Positions 7,725 to 54,202 of a stretch of 54,202 nt of DNA are shown one piece after another. Below the pieces are notes generated by a model. That model ran no database searches, was not told where the DNA came from, and saw only the letters and a list, made by a program, of their open reading frames with translations. Made by a program: the position numbers and the translations under genes. The first letter of the stretch is position 1. Every line of letters starts with the position of its first letter. The stretch comes from Flavobacteriia bacterium (GTDB lineage: Bacteria; Bacteroidota; Bacteroidia; Flavobacteriales; Schleiferiaceae), in NCBI GenBank assembly GCA_013373425.1, contig JABXHW010000001.1, positions 1 through 54,202 on the forward strand, written 5' to 3'.

Positions 7725-8258
7725 ATGAAAAAGTTCGCACTGTTGATTTTGTCGGGATTAGTGCTCGCATCTTGCGATTACACTGACCCTAAACCGGTTG
7801 ACCATCACGCGGAAATGGGCGCTAGAGTGGATTCTCTTGCCGCTATTGTAATGTCGAACGATTCTGTAATCGACGTTCAATTAGCCGAGAACCTCGAGCA
7901 TGCCTACAAAGACTTCAACAAGGCCTTTCCAGAAGATTCACTCGTCGTATGGAATACCTTCAATCTAGGAGTTCTTTATTCTGGACTACCTGGAAAGGAG
8001 TACTTCGCCATTGAGCAGTTTGCCATTGTCTACGATGATTATCGCGACCATCCATTGGCGCCTCAGGCTTTGTACAACATGGGAATCATGTTCGACACCC
8101 GCAACGATAAGGAGAAAGCGGCAATGACTTTTCAAGAGTTTGTAAATCAATATCCTGAGCATGACTGGGCAGAAGCTGCTCGTGCAATGGTGGAATTGAA
8201 TGCGGATAGCGTAGATTTGGAGGCGCAAGTTGACCAATGGTTACAACAAGCTCAATAA
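7725..8258 (+). CDS. TPR-containing lipoprotein (177 aa)
   Basis: A lipoprotein signal peptide ends in the lipobox LASC (Cys about residue 17). The mature protein contains TPR-like helices (WNTFNLGVLYSGL, then APQALYNMGIMFDTRNDKEKAAMTFQEFVNQYPEHDWAEAARAM) of the YbgF/BamD style, so it is likely an envelope scaffold on the inner leaflet of the outer membrane. It begins 2 bp after def and overlaps the ORF extension of the DUF5606 gene, whose preferred start lies 20 bp downstream. Specific partner unknown. Confidence 0.8.
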   Translation: MKKFALLILSGLVLASCDYTDPKPVDHHAEMGARVDSLAAIVMSNDSVIDVQLAENLEHAYKDFNKAFPEDSLVVWNTFNLGVLYSGLPGKEYFAIEQFAIVYDDYRDHPLAPQALYNMGIMFDTRNDKEKAAMTFQEFVNQYPEHDWAEAARAMVELNADSVDLEAQVDQWLQQAQ

Positions 8259-45363: not shown

Positions 45364-45389
45364 AAAGCCCGACGAAATGCCTGGGCTTT
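45364..45389. terminator. weak hairpin, possible terminator
   Basis: AAAGCCC / GGGCTTT, 7-bp stem with a 12-nt loop. On the minus strand it is followed by TTTTGTG, a short T-run. It would end transcripts that read through the gene ending at 45527. Confidence 0.35.
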
Positions 45390-45404
45390 GAGAATGAGCT
45401 GCCG

Positions 45405-45520
45405 TATATTGGTTTGGGTAAGGCTTGTGGCGGTTTCGAAGTCCTGTAGGTGCGGGATCCACTGAAATCAAAGCTGGCAGCCGTTCACTCGCCATAAGCT
45501 ATATGCGCTCTTACCTGCTG
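45405..45520 (-). repeat. degenerate attC-like palindrome (copy A)
   Basis: GGCTTGTGGCGGTTTCGAAG (45422-45441) differs at one base from 54092-54111, and 45474-45506 matches 54160-54193 almost entirely, so this is a sister of the window-end palindrome. The stem GGCTTGTGGCG / CGCCATAAGC is kept, but the end boxes (ACAAC / GTTGT) are lost. It abuts the stop of the gene ending at 45527. Confidence 0.65.
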
Positions 45521-45526
45521 GCTTTT

Positions 45527-46111
45527 TTATTTCTTTTCAATTCGTCCATTATCTAAAATACGATACTCGACTTTCCCTGTTGTCATTTTCATGCTTCCTT
45601 CAATAATGTCCGTTTCGTCTTCATTAAAGTCCCATCGTTTTACGGTGTCAAGGACAGTAATCGTTCGGTCAGCATTAAAAGTCAGATGTTCTATAGCTGA
45701 ATATCCCATGTCTTGACCGCTCTTATAGTAAAAACCTGTCGAGTCAATTTTATTTCCTTCTAAATCATAGGTAGTCAAAAAGGGTACAATTCCCCAATCA
45801 CCAATTGAGCAGTCAATAATTCCAATTGTCTTGTCGTCCTGATAGTAGATATCCAAGGGGTGGCTCGTCCAAGTATGTTTATATTTTTCGAAAGCGCTTT
45901 TGTCAAAGTTCTTTGAGGTCTCTGGAAGTTGTCCAAGTGGATTAGCTTCTAAGGGAAGAGGAATTTGGTCGAGTGTGGAAATGTAATTTTCAAAGTCCGA
46001 GCTTGTCTGTTCAGTTGTTTTACTTGATCTGGTTGACTTCTCCTTTTTCGTCGAGCTGTCACAACTCCACAAAACGGAAAGTAAAATTGATAATACGATT
46101 AGTTGTTTCAT
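45527..46111 (-). CDS. hypothetical lipoprotein in cassette 4 (194 aa)
   Basis: Lipoprotein signal with lipobox LWSC (Cys about 17), a Ser/Thr/Lys-rich spacer (about 18-40) and a beta-rich body (DIYYQDDKTIGIIDCSIGDWGIVPFLTTYD, then TVLDTVKRWDFNED) with no named domain. Its start is 24 bp from the core of one palindrome (B) and its stop is next to a degenerate one (A), the arrangement of a single-gene cassette. Low G+C by eye. Two further Cys-containing segments are not obviously functional. Confidence 0.65.
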   Translation of the reverse strand: MKQLIVLSILLSVLWSCDSSTKKEKSTRSSKTTEQTSSDFENYISTLDQIPLPLEANPLGQLPETSKNFDKSAFEKYKHTWTSHPLDIYYQDDKTIGIIDCSIGDWGIVPFLTTYDLEGNKIDSTGFYYKSGQDMGYSAIEHLTFNADRTITVLDTVKRWDFNEDETDIIEGSMKMTTGKVEYRILDNGRIEKK

Positions 46112-46132: not shown

Positions 46133-46190
46133 GTAACGTTTTGGCTATGCGCAGTGTCCTGATGGGCATTGCGTATTGCCATTGTTGTGG
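46133..46190 (-). repeat. attC-like palindrome B
   Basis: End boxes AAC (46135-46137) and GTT (46184-46186), spacer GTTTT opposite ATT, then a 17-bp imperfect stem GGCTATGCGCAGTGTCC / GGGCATTGCGTATTGCC with wobble-type differences. It follows the stop codon of the 46198-46605 gene by 8 bp and precedes the start of the next ORF by 21 bp. Confidence 0.7.
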
Positions 46191-48206: not shown

Positions 48207-48270
48207 ACAACGTTCCGTGTATGGTGCCGTAGCATCCCGCAGGGTGCTATGCACTATACACATTGTTGTG
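48207..48270 (-). repeat. attC-like palindrome D
   Basis: End boxes ACAAC (48207-48211) and GTTGTG (48265-48270), asymmetric spacers GTTCC / ATT, then GTGTATGGTGC / GCACTATACAC with a bulge, and AGCATCC / GGGTGCT around a CGCA loop. This is the most complete copy. It ends the defence cassette and stands 12 bp before the Crp-type gene. Confidence 0.75.
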
Positions 48271-48300
48271 TTTTCGTACTTTATTTTTCTTCTGTCTGTT

Positions 48301-48388
48301 AGCGTTGGCAAAGACATACTCTTTTGCAATTTTTGGTTGCAGCGTTGGCTGGTGTGAATTGCAAATGTGTATGGCTTTAAGCGTTGGC
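48301..48388. repeat. structured CGTTGGC element, copy E
   Basis: Three AGCGTTGGC words (48301, 48341, 48380) in one hairpin: AAAG-a-CATAC-TCTT-TTGCAATT pairs with AATTGCAA-ATGT-GTATG-g-CTTT, with the middle AGCGTTGGC in the loop. Related to copy F1 at 53972-54058 with compensatory changes in the stem. It lies between the OLD-like gene stop and palindrome D. Confidence 0.75.
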
Positions 48389-48389
48389 A

Positions 48390-50069
48390 TTATTTCGTTT
48401 TAATCTCTAATATCAAATCAAATACATTTTTGAAGTGTTTGAATTCATGGTCTGGAAATCCATTACAGTCTTGTTCCAAAAGTCTTTTTACTTGATTTTT
48501 CGTAACGATTGAATCCAATCCCTTGAATGAACTTAAAACGTATTGATTCAATAAGTTTTTACTAAAGTAATCCTCAACATTAAAATTCAGTCCGCCTCTA
48601 TACCATTGGCGAGTTGGATAAATTGAAATCCATATTTCACCTTTTTTACGGTATTTATTGAAATTACCATTGTTATAAGCATTGGCATTTGTGCGATTGA
48701 ATATTTTATTAACAGCACCCCAACCTGATCGGTCGCTATCGAAAAATGCAATTATATGTTGACCTACCTTTGGTGTAAACTTTTCAGTTAACAATTTAAC
48801 TCCTTCAGCTCCACCACAAGGCAAATATTCAAACTCAAGGTTGGCGTACCTTGGTTCAGAAAGTTTCAATACTTCCAAAGCTTTTTTTAGGAAAACTTCA
48901 TCTGTCTTTCCTTCTACTAGTAGAATATCATTTTGAGAATTCAGAAAAATATTTTGCTCTTGATAACTCCAAATACCTTTGGTCAACTCATAAACAATTT
49001 TCTGCTTTTCCATTGCTTCTACTTGGGCATCATTATTTGCCTTTTTTGAAAGCATTGTAATGTGTTTCAAATCGAAATTATGGGTAAGAGTAGGCGAGTG
49101 AGTTGTAATTACATTCTCTCTGTTTGAATAAGCTTTTAGTAGTTTTTCAATCTGTCCTTTGTTGGAAAGATGAATATGACTGTCTGGTTCGTCAAGAAGT
49201 ATCAAAGAATTTTCGTCTCCAATTACTTCCAAAATCAACATAATGAGCAGAAGCTTCTTTTCGCCTTCGCTAAGACTTTCAGCTTTTAATCCTGTATTGT
49301 AGTCGATTTCAATTTTGGTGATTACTTTATCTTCTTTTGGCATAAATGCCGCAGCAAGATATTTGAACAAGTCTATTTCATTAATAAAATTGAGTTTTTG
49401 CTTAAACTCCTCTAAAGTCATTTGAACCGAAGCATCCTTGTTCGGATTCAAAGTATTCACCATATTGGTTACAGGGTTATTTGACCAAGTTGCTAAAGTT
49501 GGAATACTAAAATCAAATTTGATGTAATTTATCGTCTGAATGCCTAAAGTGTCTTGGCAAAACTTTCTTATGTCTTCAAATGCCTCAAAATCATAGAAAT
49601 GAAGTGTTACGAGAGCAATGTTCCAATAATACTTATTGATATAAATTAGCTCTGAATCAGGAATTGATGCACCCTTTAATGCTTTTGTATACTCATCATA
49701 AAACGGTTTATAATAAGTTTCCCATAATCTGCTTTCTTCACCGCTGTATGAGCTTATCAGCTGGTTTGGTAAATGTTCAGGTCTTAAACCTGCAATTGCA
49801 CCATTGACTTTTGTTTCATAACTACCATTCTCAAATTTTACTTCAATCTTGTAAGTGTCTTTGGTGTATGAAAACTCATAGTTGAAACTTGGATTGTATT
49901 TAGTATCAAACAAGCCTGCAAAAACACTACTTATGGCTTCTAAAATATTACTCTTCCCACTTCCATTGTTGCCAATCAAAACCGTAATACCTTCTTTATT
50001 TGAAAAATCTATTTCAAAATCTTCCAAATTCTTAAAACGTGTATTGATTTTTAGCTTTTCGAGTCTCAT
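48390..50069 (-). CDS. OLD-like ABC ATPase with C-terminal TOPRIM nuclease
   Basis: 559 aa. The ATPase part has Walker A GNNGSGKS (33-40), the ABC signature LSEGEKK (about 264-270), Walker B LILLDEPDSH (about 283-292) and the His switch TTHSP (about 320). The TOPRIM part has LLVEGKTDE (catalytic Glu about 384) and FFDSDRSG (DxD, about 440-447). All motifs look intact. The layout matches OLD-family nucleases (as in Gabija GajA) and AAA-15 proteins. Its ATG overlaps the specificity-gene stop by 4 bp, so it belongs to the RM operon. Likely role: DNA-end or nick processing nuclease in phage defence. No UvrD-like partner is present. Confidence 0.88.
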   Translation of the reverse strand: MRLEKLKINTRFKNLEDFEIDFSNKEGITVLIGNNGSGKSNILEAISSVFAGLFDTKYNPSFNYEFSYTKDTYKIEVKFENGSYETKVNGAIAGLRPEHLPNQLISSYSGEESRLWETYYKPFYDEYTKALKGASIPDSELIYINKYYWNIALVTLHFYDFEAFEDIRKFCQDTLGIQTINYIKFDFSIPTLATWSNNPVTNMVNTLNPNKDASVQMTLEEFKQKLNFINEIDLFKYLAAAFMPKEDKVITKIEIDYNTGLKAESLSEGEKKLLLIMLILEVIGDENSLILLDEPDSHIHLSNKGQIEKLLKAYSNRENVITTHSPTLTHNFDLKHITMLSKKANNDAQVEAMEKQKIVYELTKGIWSYQEQNIFLNSQNDILLVEGKTDEVFLKKALEVLKLSEPRYANLEFEYLPCGGAEGVKLLTEKFTPKVGQHIIAFFDSDRSGWGAVNKIFNRTNANAYNNGNFNKYRKKGEIWISIYPTRQWYRGGLNFNVEDYFSKNLLNQYVLSSFKGLDSIVTKNQVKRLLEQDCNGFPDHEFKHFKNVFDLILEIKTK

Positions 50070-51403
50070 ATTGAAAGAACCGCATTTTGAACATTAGTAA
50101 TGGCATTGATTTTCTGTTCTTCAGATTGGGCAAGTAATGAATTTTGTTTTTCCTTCATCAATAATGCCTCGTTCGCTATCTTTTTTTGTGTTTCAATATC
50201 TGGAATAGGGAAAACAAACTCTTTTAATTCTTGGGCATTGACATTTGCTTGTCCCAATACTTGCCTACTAATAAGGTCAATCTGCACACGTCCTATTGGT
50301 GAATTAAAAAGGAAGTTTATGTAATCGACATCTAATTTCAGATTATTTAATTTCAATCTTATTAGATAAGATGCAAATGTGTATTCTTCATCTTCTTTGA
50401 ATACTGCTGTTTTACCCACAAGTTCTTTACTATTTGTTCTATTAAAAAGAAGATCTCCCTTTTCTAATAGATATTTCTTCTTTTCATTCTTTGAAAGTGT
50501 AATATATTTTAAGTCACTAATGTCTAATTCAGAATTATTGATATTATTCATTCTTAACATTGGTGTTCCAACAGGTTCTGGTGATGCTTTTGACGATAAA
50601 CCATACTGGGATTCGATAATGTATCGACTAATCGGGTGTAGAGGGTATTTAGCATTCTGTAAACCATCAATTGATGAAAGATTAAATAAGTAATCTACTG
50701 ACCATCTATCAATTGTTGAAAACTGAGTAAATGACAAACCTGATTTTCGTTCTTTTATGGTTAGGTTAATTCCCAACTCTTTTAAAAGAAATGCATCTAT
50801 TTCAAAACCAATCTGATTTGATTCTTTGGCAAATTCTTTTGATTTTCTGCTTTCAGAATAATATTTGTCTAGTATTTTTTGTTGAACATCAATTGGTGGC
50901 AAAGGAATATCCAATGACTTTAAGATATCAATAGTCAAATTTTGCCTTACTGAACCTGTGGTGCTTGCATTAATTACTTTGTTAAAACGCTCCGTTTTAA
51001 AAAGCTTAAAAAGGAAATCGGGTATTAAGGTTTCTTTGCAACTAAACACTACATAGGCAGGACTTATGTATTCATTTGCGTGTTCTTCAGTTCGTAAACC
51101 AATACTTCCTACGTTTACACGGTATGGATTGTAAGCCAACCAACCTTGTTCCATCGTTTTGTAGGATTGGTTGATGTTTGCTCCCTTTTCTTTGTAGGCA
51201 TCAAAAATTCCTATTTTGTTGCTTACACCCAAAATGCCGAATTCTTCATCAGGATAGTCAGCCAATTTTACTTTGTGGCTTTCTTCTTGAATGTGCATTC
51301 CCAATTTTACAATGGGATATTTTGATTGAATTTTCTCAAACGAATAGCGTTTTACATCCCATAACACAACATCACTGAAAGGGATTGTTTTAAACCATTT
51401 CAT
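50066..51403 (-). CDS. type I-like restriction specificity subunit HsdS
   Basis: 445 aa with two target-recognition domains. TRD1 (about 1-190) ends in GSVRQNLTIDILKSLDIPLPPIDVQQKILDKYY. Then comes a helical linker (about 190-225). TRD2 (about 230-400) ends RQVLGQANVNAQELKEFVFPIPDIETQKKI. A distal helix follows. Each half recognises part of a bipartite DNA target. The start at 51403 (KWFKTIPFSD) sits 4 bp after the methylase stop; the longer ORF would overlap it by 56 bp. It overlaps the next gene by ATGA. Confidence 0.92.
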   Translation of the reverse strand: MKWFKTIPFSDVVLWDVKRYSFEKIQSKYPIVKLGMHIQEESHKVKLADYPDEEFGILGVSNKIGIFDAYKEKGANINQSYKTMEQGWLAYNPYRVNVGSIGLRTEEHANEYISPAYVVFSCKETLIPDFLFKLFKTERFNKVINASTTGSVRQNLTIDILKSLDIPLPPIDVQQKILDKYYSESRKSKEFAKESNQIGFEIDAFLLKELGINLTIKERKSGLSFTQFSTIDRWSVDYLFNLSSIDGLQNAKYPLHPISRYIIESQYGLSSKASPEPVGTPMLRMNNINNSELDISDLKYITLSKNEKKKYLLEKGDLLFNRTNSKELVGKTAVFKEDEEYTFASYLIRLKLNNLKLDVDYINFLFNSPIGRVQIDLISRQVLGQANVNAQELKEFVFPIPDIETQKKIANEALLMKEKQNSLLAQSEEQKINAITNVQNAVLSI

Positions 51404-51407
51404 TGAG

Positions 51408-53699
51408 TTATTGATTGATTTTTGCATACTGCGTATAAAATGTTTCAGGTTCTCCAAATGCAACTACTCGTTGAAATTTCTCATCATACTCATCATATTG
51501 AACGCTCGTATAACGTTCATTCCAAAGTTGTTTTTCAATTCGGTATTTGGTGAATTCTTGAGCTACTGGTTCTAATTCGTTTTCAATTTTTGCACCTGTA
51601 GTGCTAATTCCTGCTTTCTCAACTTCTACAATTGGAATTTCATAGTCGAAATTGGTTTTAACTTCCAATTTGATTTCATCTTCCATTTGCTGTTGGGTTT
51701 GCTTTAATTTATCTCTAAGTTCTTTTTTCTCGTCCTTGTCAAGTCCTCTAGTTTTAATCTGATCTTGCAGTTCTGCAATTTCTTTGCTGTATTTGATTTT
51801 GGCGTTAGTTTTGGCTGTTTTAAGAATGGAAGCATATTGTTTTGTTTCTTCTTCTGTAAACTTCTTGAAGAATAGCAAACTTGGTTTTACTGTCGCGCCC
51901 GAAGCAATGAAAACGTCTTGCGGAATAGAAGTAATGTTGATGATTTTTGCCTTTCCTTCTACATAATCTCGTACTTTTTGAAGTTTAGTGTTGTTTAAAA
52001 CTCCTTCGGGTAAAACAATACCCATTCTCCCGCCTGGTTTAAGCAAGCCAAGACAACGCTCAATAAAAAGCACTTCTGTTAAACTACTCATTTTGCCTGT
52101 GTCGAATAAACCTAAAACAGGCTTTCCAATGTTGTCATTGATTTGTTTTAGAGCTTTTACATAATCCTCTTTGTATCGTTCCGTATATTTTGCAATTCGC
52201 TCAACATCTGTGTATTTGTCTTGCTCGGTGATTTTTAAAGATTTTTCAACTCTTGCTCCAAAAGGCGGATTGGTTAAAATAATATCGAAACGACCGTCAA
52301 AAATTCCATTTACATTTAATAGTCCATCGTGATGATGAACACCACCGTGTCCGTCACCGTGCATAATCATATTCATTTTTGCGGTTCGTGCCATTCTTGG
52401 ATTGGCATCTGTCCCAAAAATGCAATCATAGGAAAGTCGTCTTAAACGGCTTTCAGGATTTAAAATGTCAAGTTCAGAATTGAGTAGTGTAAATTGGTCG
52501 TTTACTTTTTGGTCAATTTTCTCTTGCTCTTTTTTTGAAGCATGGTAATACTCGTCTGTGTAGTATTTTAGTTTTACTTGTTCTTTGGCTTCTTTGATTT
52601 CATTTTCAATTTTGCTTCTTACATACTCAAAAGCTTTAATCAAAAACCCACCACTACCACAACAGGGATCGCAAACAGTTTCTCCTTCTTGTGGATCTAG
52701 AATTTCAACGATATAATCAACTACAGTACGAGGTGTAAAAAATTGGCCTAACTCGCCTCTGAAAGTTTTACCAAGGAATTTTTCAAAGGCAATTCCTTTT
52801 ACGTCATCAGAAGTTGTTGAAAGGTTATATATCTCTAACGCTTTTACGATTGCCTCAAAACTTCCTTGTTTGATTTTTATCTTTTCGTTTGAGTCGAAAA
52901 GGTCATCATCCTTAAATTCATCTTTAGTTAGTTCAAACCAATAATCCATATACGGAATGTCGTCTTTTGGTCCATTTCGTTTAACGTTGATTGGTCGTAT
53001 GTTTTTCTCGTATTGCGATTCTTGTTTTTTGAATTGTTTAAGTGAAAATATATTGTCTTCATCTGGATTCCGCTCGTAGCGGATTTTCATAAAAAGAATT
53101 TTACTTGTTTCGTCAAATGCAGCTTCCGGTGAAAGTTTATCGTTGTTTCTGATTATGTTGTGGCATCTAAAAAGTAGGTTACTGAACTCGTCTCTGGTAA
53201 ATGCTTTGGTTTGAGTTAATAAGTCTTTTACTTTTTTCTCACTCTGCAGATCTTGATTGGTAGGAATATCAAGAATTTCATCTTCCAAATCTTTTGGATA
53301 GCCGTCAAGGTTTACTTTAAAAACTTTGGTGTGCTTTAAATTGGTTGTTACAAAAAATGGTGACTTTACGTAACGAGCATAATGCGAACCTTGAAAGTAA
53401 TCGCCTTCAACTATATCAATATTATCAGCTTTACACTCGACTACAATTGAAGGTGCTTTTTTCTCAACTTCTTCTTTGCTTTTCCAAACAACAATATCGG
53501 CACTGGCTCTGCCTGTGCCTCTTTTGTTGCCTTCGGCAACAGTAACCTCTTGTTGCATTTGGTCAAGTGAGTATCCGTAATGATTTACAAGTCGGCAGAT
53601 GTACGTCTGCCTAACTTTTTCTTCTGGTGCAAGCACTAACCATTTGTCCTTTAATGGTGCAAATATTTTATTGTCTTCTATTTTTAGTTCTAATTTCAT
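51408..53699 (-). CDS. fused PD-(D/E)XK nuclease / N6-adenine DNA methylase (HsdM-type)
   Basis: 763 aa. The N-terminal part (about 1-150) looks like the HsdR_N nuclease fold: GRASADIVVW supplies the Asp and IVVECKAD the ExK. A helical HsdM_N-like region follows (about 175-300). The methylase core has FFTPRTVVDYIVEILDP, motif I DPCCGSGGFL (about 343-352), and motif IV ILTNPPFG (about 475-482). This is the BcgI / type IIG-like arrangement (R and M in one chain, S separate), longer than a plain HsdM. No DEAD-box translocase domain is seen. It follows the XRE gene after 4 bp. Confidence 0.9.
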   Translation of the reverse strand: MKLELKIEDNKIFAPLKDKWLVLAPEEKVRQTYICRLVNHYGYSLDQMQQEVTVAEGNKRGTGRASADIVVWKSKEEVEKKAPSIVVECKADNIDIVEGDYFQGSHYARYVKSPFFVTTNLKHTKVFKVNLDGYPKDLEDEILDIPTNQDLQSEKKVKDLLTQTKAFTRDEFSNLLFRCHNIIRNNDKLSPEAAFDETSKILFMKIRYERNPDEDNIFSLKQFKKQESQYEKNIRPINVKRNGPKDDIPYMDYWFELTKDEFKDDDLFDSNEKIKIKQGSFEAIVKALEIYNLSTTSDDVKGIAFEKFLGKTFRGELGQFFTPRTVVDYIVEILDPQEGETVCDPCCGSGGFLIKAFEYVRSKIENEIKEAKEQVKLKYYTDEYYHASKKEQEKIDQKVNDQFTLLNSELDILNPESRLRRLSYDCIFGTDANPRMARTAKMNMIMHGDGHGGVHHHDGLLNVNGIFDGRFDIILTNPPFGARVEKSLKITEQDKYTDVERIAKYTERYKEDYVKALKQINDNIGKPVLGLFDTGKMSSLTEVLFIERCLGLLKPGGRMGIVLPEGVLNNTKLQKVRDYVEGKAKIINITSIPQDVFIASGATVKPSLLFFKKFTEEETKQYASILKTAKTNAKIKYSKEIAELQDQIKTRGLDKDEKKELRDKLKQTQQQMEDEIKLEVKTNFDYEIPIVEVEKAGISTTGAKIENELEPVAQEFTKYRIEKQLWNERYTSVQYDEYDEKFQRVVAFGEPETFYTQYAKINQ

Positions 53700-53703
53700 C
53701 CGT

Positions 53704-53916
53704 TTAATCTTTTTGAGTTGAGTAAATCAGTTCTTTTACATCAATGTTCAGCAATTCACTTATTTGTATCAATGTTTCCAAAGAAGGCTGAACCTCATTT
53801 GTGCACCATCTTGAAACAGTCGTTTCGTTTTTATCGAGTTTCTCGGCAAGCCATTTATTAGTCTTTCCGTGTTCTACTAAAACTACTTTCAGCCTGTTAA
53901 TTGCTTTTTTATTCAT
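53704..53916 (-). CDS. XRE-family helix-turn-helix regulator of the RM operon
   Basis: 70 aa, essentially one Cro/C1-type HTH: INRLKVVLVEHGKTNKWLAEKLDKNETTVSRWCTNEVQPSLETLIQISELLNIDVKELI. This size is typical of RM controller (C) proteins. The start at 53916 is chosen because the earlier ATG (53937) lies inside a palindrome that fits an operator. It starts the four-gene operon with gaps of 4 bp, 4 bp and a 4-bp overlap. Confidence 0.88.
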   Translation of the reverse strand: MNKKAINRLKVVLVEHGKTNKWLAEKLDKNETTVSRWCTNEVQPSLETLIQISELLNIDVKELIYSTQKD

Positions 53917-53921
53917 ATTAA

Positions 53922-53942
53922 TTAGCATCAGATGCAAATGTA
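53922..53942 (-). promoter_or_regulatory. operator and -7 element of the XRE-RM operon
   Basis: GCATC-A-GATGC (53925-53935) is a perfect 11-bp palindrome flanked by TT / AA matches. It abuts and slightly overlaps a minus-strand TACATTTG (TAnnTTTG, 53942-53935). A controller bound here would block its own promoter. Confidence 0.5.
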
Positions 53943-53971
53943 TAAACTTTTAATGAAATTTCGTCTTATTC

Positions 53972-54058
53972 AGCGTTAGGAAAAGGCAAGCTCTTTTGGT
54001 TTTTCAGTTTTGGATTTTAGCGTTGGCAAAAACCAAATGTGCTTGACCGAGCGTTGGC
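53972..54058. repeat. structured CGTTGGC element, copy F1
   Basis: AGCGTTAGG (53972), AGCGTTGGC (54019) and AGCGTTGGC (54050), with the outer words 78 nt apart as in copy E (79). The stem CAAGC-TCTT-TTGGTTTTT pairs with AAAAACCAA-ATGT-GCTTG, with the third word at the loop end. Five stem pairs differ from copy E but stay complementary, while TCTT / ATGT is conserved. Confidence 0.75.
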
Positions 54059-54073
54059 TTTTTTCGGTATGAA

Positions 54074-54202
54074 ACACAACGGTTTGCATATGGCTTGTGG
54101 CGGTTTTGAAGCACTTTCCTGTCCACCGAAACCAAAACTAACTACGGAGCGAAAGCCTTGCTGGCAGCTGTTCACCCGCCATAAGCTATATGCTTTGTTG
54201 TG
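54074..54202 (-). repeat. attC-like palindrome F2 (at window end)
   Basis: CACAAC (54075-54080), spacer GGTTT, arm GCATATGGCTTGTGGCGG, then a long internal part of about 70 nt, arm CCGCCATAAGCTATATGC (54176-54193), spacer TTT and GTTGTG (54197-54202). The copy reaches the window edge, and its sister is copy A. It is followed, on the minus strand, by the XRE-RM cassette. Confidence 0.75.

Follow-up and report, generated by a model that had tools for sequence, protein, structure and literature searches.

Does a nuclease that is co-translated with the specificity subunit of a restriction-modification (RM) enzyme stand in for a missing motor, or does it have a role of its own? The question is raised by a four-gene operon on the minus strand of the window, by which we mean the whole stretch of 54,202 nucleotides analysed here (positions 1 to 54,202 of contig JABXHW010000001.1, assembly GCA_013373425.1, from a Flavobacteriia bacterium of the Schleiferiaceae). 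The operon encodes an XRE/Cro-type regulator (X), a fused nuclease and methylase (M), an HsdS specificity subunit with two target recognition domains (TRDs; S) and an OLD-family ABC ATPase with a C-terminal TOPRIM domain (ATPase-TOPRIM). An original prediction had proposed that the OLD protein either replaces the motor subunit HsdR or acts as a back-up nuclease, and we infer the latter to be the best supported of these two ideas. The reading we favour, at a probability of about one half, is a portable two-layer anti-phage system within one integron cassette, in which the ATPase-TOPRIM is held back until release.

An apparently motor-less enzyme core encoded with an ATPase-TOPRIM

The genes and domains of the operon are as follows:
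53704..53916, minus strand: X, XRE/Cro-type regulator (open reading frame (ORF) and Pfam HTH_3)
51408..53699, minus strand: M, fusion of a PD-(D/E)XK nuclease (HSDR_N) and an N6-adenine methylase, 763 aa (Pfam, conservation, profile and fold)
53307..53627, minus strand: HSDR_N nuclease domain of M, residues 25-131 (Pfam; D68, E88 and K90 kept)
50066..51403, minus strand: S, HsdS with two TRDs (Pfam, ATG start)
50066..50863, minus strand: second half of S; the four closest relatives each have a different one (identity comparison)
48390..50069, minus strand: OLD-family ABC ATPase with C-terminal TOPRIM, 559 aa (ORF, Pfam, conservation, model)
48390..48944, minus strand: TOPRIM half, residues 376-559, with E386, D444 and D446, exchanged as a unit (alignment)

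The gene order and spacing given in the original prediction are correct to the base, with gaps of 4 bp between X and M and between M and S, and a 4-bp ATGA overlap between S and the ATPase gene. Pfam matches and catalytic-residue alignments also bear out the identities it assigned (an XRE protein, a fused nuclease-methylase, a two-TRD HsdS and an ABC ATPase/TOPRIM protein with kept motifs). The GC content of the operon is 0.33-0.36, against 0.39-0.48 in the other 2-kb blocks of the window.

M matches HSDR_N_2 (1e-22, residues 25-131) and N6_Mtase (1.9e-35), and S contains two stretches of Methylase_S. The nuclease residues Asp-68, Glu-88 and Lys-90 of M are kept in 15/15 and 17/17 rows of two overlapping alignments, neither of which includes the Hymenobacter locus L010. 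Type IIB RM enzymes characteristically cleave on both sides of their site as an (RM)2S assembly. In a profile search with M, the motor-less type IIB enzyme BsaXI ranks first (115 bits), which upholds the BcgI-like RM core proposed earlier. BsaXI is again the first Foldseek match of the AlphaFold model of M (E 2.6e-19, 880 columns, template modelling (TM) score 0.45; predicted local distance difference test (pLDDT) 77, predicted TM score (pTM) 0.58). As in type IIB enzymes, a PD-(D/E)XK nuclease and an N6-adenine methylase share one polypeptide, the two-TRD S is separate and the cassette holds no translocase gene; the ORF list and Pfam reveal neither HsdR nor a helicase among its four genes. 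A helicase need not be 'missing' here, because the best profile and fold match of M is a motor-less enzyme, and from sequence and model the core looks complete without a motor.

The ATPase part of the fourth protein matches AAA_21 (9.3e-20), and all TOPRIM-type Pfam models stay below their curated cut-offs (OLD-like_TOPRIM 21.4 against 23.2 bits, DUF4435 20.9 against 27, DUF3226 21 against 27). Lys-39, the LSEGE motif (266-270), Glu-294 and His-324 of the ATPase and Glu-386, Asp-444 and Asp-446 of the TOPRIM domain are kept in 13/13 rows; those of them that were checked again are also kept in L029, L060 and L061. The protein thus has the OLD family arrangement of an ABC ATPase followed by a TOPRIM domain with its E and DxD residues. 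The nearest full-length fold to its AlphaFold model (mean pLDDT 83, pTM 0.66) is Thermus OLD (E 4.6e-12, TM 0.35). The ATPase part aligns with retron PtuA, Septu PtuA and PARIS AriA at Z 16 to 17, in VIA-align fold rows that cover residues 1-373 only and leave the TOPRIM part outside the comparison. Among PADLOC models PtuA1 scores best (142 bits), with AriA at 73 and the AriAB model at 57; restrict_AAA_1 (TIGR04435) scores 67.3 bits against a cut-off of 300.

Recurrence of the operon and exchange of its effector

We searched 84,980 species genomes with the ATPase, a search that detects close relatives only, and found nine loci (35 to 99% identical) in Cyclobacterium, Chitinophaga, Hymenobacter, Marixanthotalea, two Bacteroidetes/Bacteroidia metagenome-assembled genomes (MAGs), a Gastranaerophilales MAG and two unclassified bacteria. 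M lies upstream in 9/9; S was found with the window's S in eight and by Pfam in the ninth (L007). The neighbourhood check that had been proposed thus places close ATPase homologues beside M-S throughout, and not rarely. At E 1e-20 the ATPase occurs in two of 296 genomes of the phylum (the window's own and G187), each time behind M-S. Two of 72,556 plasmid records match: a Flammeovirga plasmid with the order X-M-S-ATPase and a Pantoea plasmid with the order S-PtuA-PtuB-M, whose M is only 24% alike. Among viral sequences, seven of nine ATPase-led loci are weak partial matches without M or S detected alongside; these aside, the phylum-genome, species-genome and plasmid searches returned no stand-alone close homologue of the ATPase. 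A phage home for M was also considered and rejected, as 50,697 phage records held no M match at E 1e-40.

M-led searches, run to avoid the bias of starting from the ATPase, differ in their cut-offs and partly overlap in their samples. They gave six hits in 395 phylum genomes, the own genome alone among 198 relatives, five hits in 345 genomes of the class, two each in two other classes (244 and 294 genomes), 15 loci in IMG/VR and three hits in plasmids. The 29 loci comprise 15 close (M 53 to 100% identical) and 14 distant ones (31 to 48%). L028 and L064 have identical M, which leaves 14 distinct close loci, and in these S is followed by an ATPase-TOPRIM (7), PtuA+PtuB (4), a Fic protein (1) or nothing recognised (2; L030, L031). 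An OLD-type nuclease after hsdS, as the original prediction had it, is recurrent: it is present in 9/9 loci of the ATPase-led search, and in 11/14 distinct close loci of the M-led searches S is directly followed by an OLD-family ATPase. In 11 distant loci BLAST found no such ATPase; the other three lie outside this count (L026 and L033 end at a contig edge, and one plasmid was not included). Because the distant M loci are without it, the ATPase is confined, as far as these sequences tell, to one clade of M.

All searches together yield 23 distinct close loci, with an ATPase-TOPRIM in 16 (nine of them from the ATPase-led search), PtuA+PtuB in four (L023, L025, L028/L064, L032), Fic in one and nothing recognised in two. 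L007 carries an ATPase-TOPRIM and PtuA+PtuB in a row. PtuB was called by PADLOC in L023, L025, L007 and L021 (178 to 293 bits) and by similarity to these in L028 and L064 (28%) and L032 (50%); Pfam Fic and PADLOC PDC-S72 (488 bits) identify the Fic protein of L059. Of the 21 loci with an effector, 17 have its reading frame overlapping that of S, by mechanically called gene starts, and the gaps in the remaining four are 2, 2, 3 and 26 bp. On a 28-row tree of M, built by a quick method, with long branches, three open forks and L007 scored as TOPRIM, the effector state changes at least five times. The slot after hsdS is modular, judged by its gene content. Loci with M-S but no recognised ATPase, the presence of PtuA+PtuB or Fic in the slot and the repeated changes of state make the effector look more like an add-on than a motor. 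We thus rejected the replacement of HsdR as the leading idea: M is similar to the subunits of motor-less type IIB enzymes, and some loci have M-S with no recognised ATPase (L030, L031) or paired with Fic (L059).

Beside these loci we noted an 871-aa PDC-S06 ATPase after the ATPase-TOPRIM in L024, and a GIY-YIG/DUF4357 gene and a Piwi-domain gene after it in L061 (2650-7358, G653). In L030 (6040-7008) and L031 (5656-6795), genes of 322 and 379 aa with no Pfam match lie directly before M.

Exchange also occurs within the genes. M of the window is 94 to 98% identical to that of L005, L006, L008 and L009. In S of the same five loci the first 200 residues are 75 to 100% identical (in 40-residue blocks) and the rest 8 to 35%. 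The two parts of the ATPase-TOPRIM follow different patterns: L006 and L009 share 97% of the ATPase and 41% of the TOPRIM half, the window and L006 84% and 97%, the window and L008 86% and 40%, and L008 and L009 81% and 84%. DNA identity jumps at the same points as protein identity. Allele A of the TOPRIM half is found in the window, L005, L006, L007, L010 and L029, allele B in L008 and L009. Because ATPase and TOPRIM identities disagree between loci, the alignments indicate that the TOPRIM half is exchanged as a unit, independently of the ATPase. Relaxed drift as the cause of TOPRIM divergence was rejected, since two alleles are common to different ATPase backgrounds.

The original prediction did not mention attC-type hairpins, which lie just outside both ends of the operon:
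48211..54079, minus strand: integron gene cassette of 5,869 bp; it begins one base past the G at 54080 in the upstream R' and ends on the G at 48211 in its own R'
54074..54202, minus strand: attC of the preceding cassette (scan hairpin 54078-54199), R' GTTGTGT at 54080-54074, outer R'' cut by the contig end
48205..48271, minus strand: the cassette's own attC (scan hairpin 48209-48267), R'' ACACAAC ... R' GTTGTAT

In integrons the R'' of a cassette is expected to be complementary to the R' before it, and over 7 bases the upstream R' GTTGTGT is the exact reverse complement of the cassette's R'' ACACAAC. The operon thus has an attC at both borders and the expected pairing of cores. Across 11 stretches, 33 of 37 adjacent pairs match exactly, against a mean of 2.1 and a maximum of 7 in 2000 trials of random pairing; the four failures are a third window hairpin, one pair in G226 and two in Flammeovirga. 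This core test carries the weight, since the attC scan is crude: it requires AAC...CGTT, missed a short hairpin (L005 5') and one with CAGTT (G226 3', found by eye), and gave low-scoring hits inside genes (L006, L009). On both strands of the window it found two hairpins, and none in six Markov randomisations of one strand. When shorter hairpins were allowed, a third match appeared (about 46135-46186) that did not pass the core test. Among ten manually cut stretches, four (window 5' and 3', L005 5', L009 5') show clear attC-like stems with unpaired spacers and bulges, and the others are less clear. The flanks beyond the shared operon differ among the five closest loci, with hairpins there as far as the contigs reach.

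Exactly matching cores at the two borders were seen in the window, L005, L006, L009, L059 (the Fic version, 5,403 bp) and L023 (the Septu version, its two cores read by eye). In L008 and the Flammeovirga plasmid the cores match, and one hairpin is cut off or absent. Cassette evidence thus covers eight of the 23 loci; the scan found no such pair in the other 15, where some contigs end near the operon (L029, L060). In Marixanthotalea the RM cassette lies within an array of 14 attC sites (151,195 to 175,049 of one contig). The median size of 31 cassettes with exact cores, counted apart from the window and L005, is 918 bp, and five exceed 4 kb (4.3 to 6.7 kb). The whole operon is, by its sequence borders, one unusually large integron cassette, and it looks able to pass whole from one bacterium to another. 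In the set of 198 relatives the system is confined to the own genome, yet a Cyclobacterium has X, M and ATPase with 97 to 99% identity to those of the window. This patchy occurrence alongside near-identity suggests horizontal transfer of the operon.

The cassette also appears to bring its own control elements:
53935..53942, minus strand: promoter-like box TACATTTG (TAnnTTTG); such a box lies close before X in 9/12 loci
53925..53935, minus strand: inverted repeat GCATCTGATGC, candidate operator of the XRE protein; GCATnnnA(C/T)GC stands beside the box in 8/12 loci

TAnnTTTG is the Bacteroidota -7 consensus. X matches Pfam HTH_3, with no C-protein model among its NCBIfam matches. Given the promoter-like box and the inverted repeat before X, expression of the operon need not depend on its position in an array.

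Proposed mechanism, rival explanations and known systems

In the two-layer system that we favour, two M and one S would assemble into a type IIB-like enzyme. This enzyme would methylate its recognition site in the host's DNA, and the PD-(D/E)XK domain of M would cut unmethylated DNA without a motor. The co-translated ABC ATPase-TOPRIM would be kept inactive in or near this M-S enzyme. When a phage blocks the enzyme with a DNA mimic or a peptide, or when the enzyme engages foreign DNA, a change in ATPase state would free the TOPRIM nuclease, which would then damage nucleic acid, most likely tRNA, and stop the infected cell. The XRE protein would limit the dose from a promoter inside the cassette. 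Gene content, frame overlap, kept catalytic residues, conservation, effector exchange and cassette borders are the observed basis of this scheme; complex formation, activity, trigger, target and cell arrest are what it would predict. A guard or second-line role fits better than a motor, because the core looks complete without one, unrelated proteins also occupy the slot, and the TOPRIM half has been swapped between loci. There are precedents in passages of earlier papers: PrrC is held in a type I enzyme and freed on T4 infection (PMC3874165), and PARIS responds to Ocr and is described as a second line after restriction (PMC9122126). Excerpts of further papers report that AriB cuts tRNA (PMC12409363), that retron PtuAB depletes tRNA-Tyr (PMC11555353) and that Septu acts on tRNA (PMC13096335). 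By analogy tRNA may be the TOPRIM target, an extrapolation because OLD and Gabija proteins cut DNA (section of PMC10568477).

That DNA cleavage is one of several points that weigh against our scheme. The TM scores are low, 0.45 for the M model and 0.35 for the ATPase model. As a single sequence, M scores type I M proteins above BsaXI (90.6 against 72.4 bits), its sequence match to BsaXI spans residues 167-676 and leaves the nuclease domain outside, and the best PADLOC models are 'Type I methyltransferase' for M (1205.6 bits) and 'Type I specificity subunit' for S (493 bits). Rad50 and SMC heads match the ATPase nearly equally (Z 14 to 15.6). The genes before M in L030 and L031 could be another partner of M-S. 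The main fact against a purely accessory TOPRIM is L010 (5369-8974). Its M, preceded by a tyrosine recombinase gene, has lost the nuclease domain and is joined to one stretch of Methylase_S, and the ATPase-TOPRIM is nevertheless kept; this fits the TOPRIM domain as the main restriction effector.

L010 would be explained by a BREX-like split, in which M-S marks self and flags unmethylated DNA, the recruited ATPase-TOPRIM is the main DNA-destroying effector and the nuclease of M is auxiliary. The relation of M to MAD2 of the methylation-associated defence system (MADS; 287.6 bits) and a nearest full-length fold that is itself a nuclease, Thermus OLD, point the same way. We nonetheless regard this split as less likely than our scheme, since the nuclease residues of M are kept in every row of both alignments, from which L010 is absent, and since some loci combine M-S with no recognised ATPase or with Fic, a protein that is not a DNA nuclease. 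Two independent defence modules could instead share operon and cassette without contact, as frequent changes of effector would allow and as P2 Old, which acts alone against lambda (from part of PMC10568477), illustrates. The overlap of reading frames in 17/21 loci, the fixed gene order with the ATPase behind M-S in 9/9 loci, and the lack of a stand-alone close homologue in our searches, weak partial viral matches aside, make this unlikely. It is more improbable still that the ATPase-TOPRIM (or PtuAB, or Fic) is a toxin checked by M-S that mainly stabilises the cassette in its array. Integron cassettes often hold toxin-antitoxin pairs (as stated in a portion of PMC8618304) and the operon has its own promoter-like box, but the variety of effectors and the TOPRIM exchange would rather resemble an arms race with phage.

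Held-back effectors of this kind would, in a tentative extension of our scheme, define a new integron-borne defence class: a constant type IIB-like enzyme would act as the sensor on which interchangeable suicide effectors are mounted (TOPRIM, Septu PtuAB or Fic). TOPRIM domains might then be replaced in the way TRDs are, so that a different tRNA or other nucleic acid comes under attack and the system stays ahead of escaping phages. If this is true, Bacteroidota integrons would be spreading immune systems of several genes, a cargo that is absent from the integrons studied to date.

We compared the operon to known systems. Like BcgI and BsaXI, it has nuclease and methylase in one chain, a separate two-TRD S and no motor; unlike them it couples an effector gene to S, its M has 763 aa against 916 in BsaXI, and its cleavage is only predicted. 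MADS is an eight-gene system with a related methylase (MAD2), an AAA ATPase (MAD3) and S (MAD5), whereas here there are four genes, and the matches to MAD2, MAD3 and MAD5 score 287.6/720, 38.4/420 and 45.6/400 bits, all under the NCBIfam cut-offs. NCBIfam also has a 'restriction system-associated AAA family ATPase' model; neither this nor the MADS models reach their cut-offs here. PARIS shares the OLD-family ATPase and TOPRIM; ariAB stands outside RM operons, whereas the fused ATPase-TOPRIM overlaps hsdS, and the DUF4435 model scores 20.9/27 bits and the AriAB model 57 bits. Septu is alike in that PtuA1 is the best PADLOC model of the ATPase and PtuA+PtuB occupy the same slot in relatives, and differs in that a TOPRIM domain replaces the HNH partner; the ORF list of the cassette contains no PtuB HNH gene, which is present in L023, L025 and L007. 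EcoprrI/PrrC and other RM-linked effectors likewise place an ATPase-nuclease within an RM operon (parts of PMC3874165 and PMC11555353), but EcoprrI is a type I host with HsdR, and here the core is type IIB-like and the TOPRIM fused. The N-terminal ABC ATPase and C-terminal TOPRIM are shared with OLD classes 1-3, Gabija and retron Eco8. In the relevant part of PMC10568477 these classes are set by context (alone, helicase, retron), and an RM context is none of these; no GajB UvrD-like helicase lies among the cassette genes or the two genes downstream, and the contig ends upstream.

The novelty that the original prediction saw in an OLD nuclease tied to an RM enzyme stands in part: we found no paper naming the operon, but OLD-type ABC ATPases that accompany BREX and RM-like systems are already in print (excerpt of PMC12839542). 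Our literature search, outside which most subscription papers lie, returned no operon with exchangeable effectors, TOPRIM exchange or integron-cassette form. Defence genes as integron cassettes are described by Darracq 2025 and Kieffer 2025 (via a passage of PMC12409362), whereas here four genes span 5.9 kb. That passage of the review, after Darracq 2025, gives larger systems of more than two genes as absent from integrons, to which the four-gene cassette is an exception. The locus joins restriction enzymes, OLD/Septu/Fic effectors and integrons, themes usually kept apart, and points to Bacteroidota integrons as carriers of large cassettes. One M-S core with different effectors and swapped TOPRIM halves also offers a natural experiment on how a second effector, which may be suicidal, could come under the control of an RM enzyme.

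Integrase candidates and neighbouring cassettes

In the own genome (96% complete, 76 contigs) TIGR02249 matches are weak (best 74.5 bits) and no integrase stood out. We rejected this model as proof of an integrase, because 13/14 control genomes in the comparison with the own genome, and 14/14 in another comparison, match too. Recombinases of 378-379 aa precede attC arrays by 0.8 to 1.4 kb in G226 and G1203 (Cyclobacterium); in G1206 (Marixanthotalea) such a gene lies 2 kb before a single attC, the main array beginning 17 kb further. All three are on the same strand as the cassettes and score 188 to 199 bits with TIGR02249 (cut-off 265). We only infer that they act as integrases, because XerD scores nearly as high (167 to 180 bits). 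In G226 some 290 kb separate the recombinase from the RM cassette. Similar recombinase genes in G842 and G1205 have no attC within the stretches read, the stretch of own contig 62 shows no integrase-plus-array, and the Flammeovirga plasmid (L020) has no TIGR02249 match. The cassette on that plasmid starts at a matching GTTGTAT core near 7868, with no hairpin found before it; this start is perhaps an attI or secondary site.

In the window, 45381-45560 is likely a decayed copy of the upstream attC hairpin, with three mismatches in a 21-base arm and the final GTT absent (by eye), and older array remnants may lie upstream. The stretches 48280-48390 and 53960-54070 are rich in GCCAACGC and AGCACATTTGGTTTTTGCC, and such stretches end several cassettes. 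In L009 (220-4775, G1206 contig 33) a 6,660-bp cassette adjoins the RM cassette; its products are a DUF3584 protein of 1,232 aa that has a P-loop and a DUF7281 protein of 285 aa, with no PADLOC match. In L091 (11323-15085, G226) a 4,295-bp cassette carries a KAP NTPase and a GmrSD-type restriction protein.

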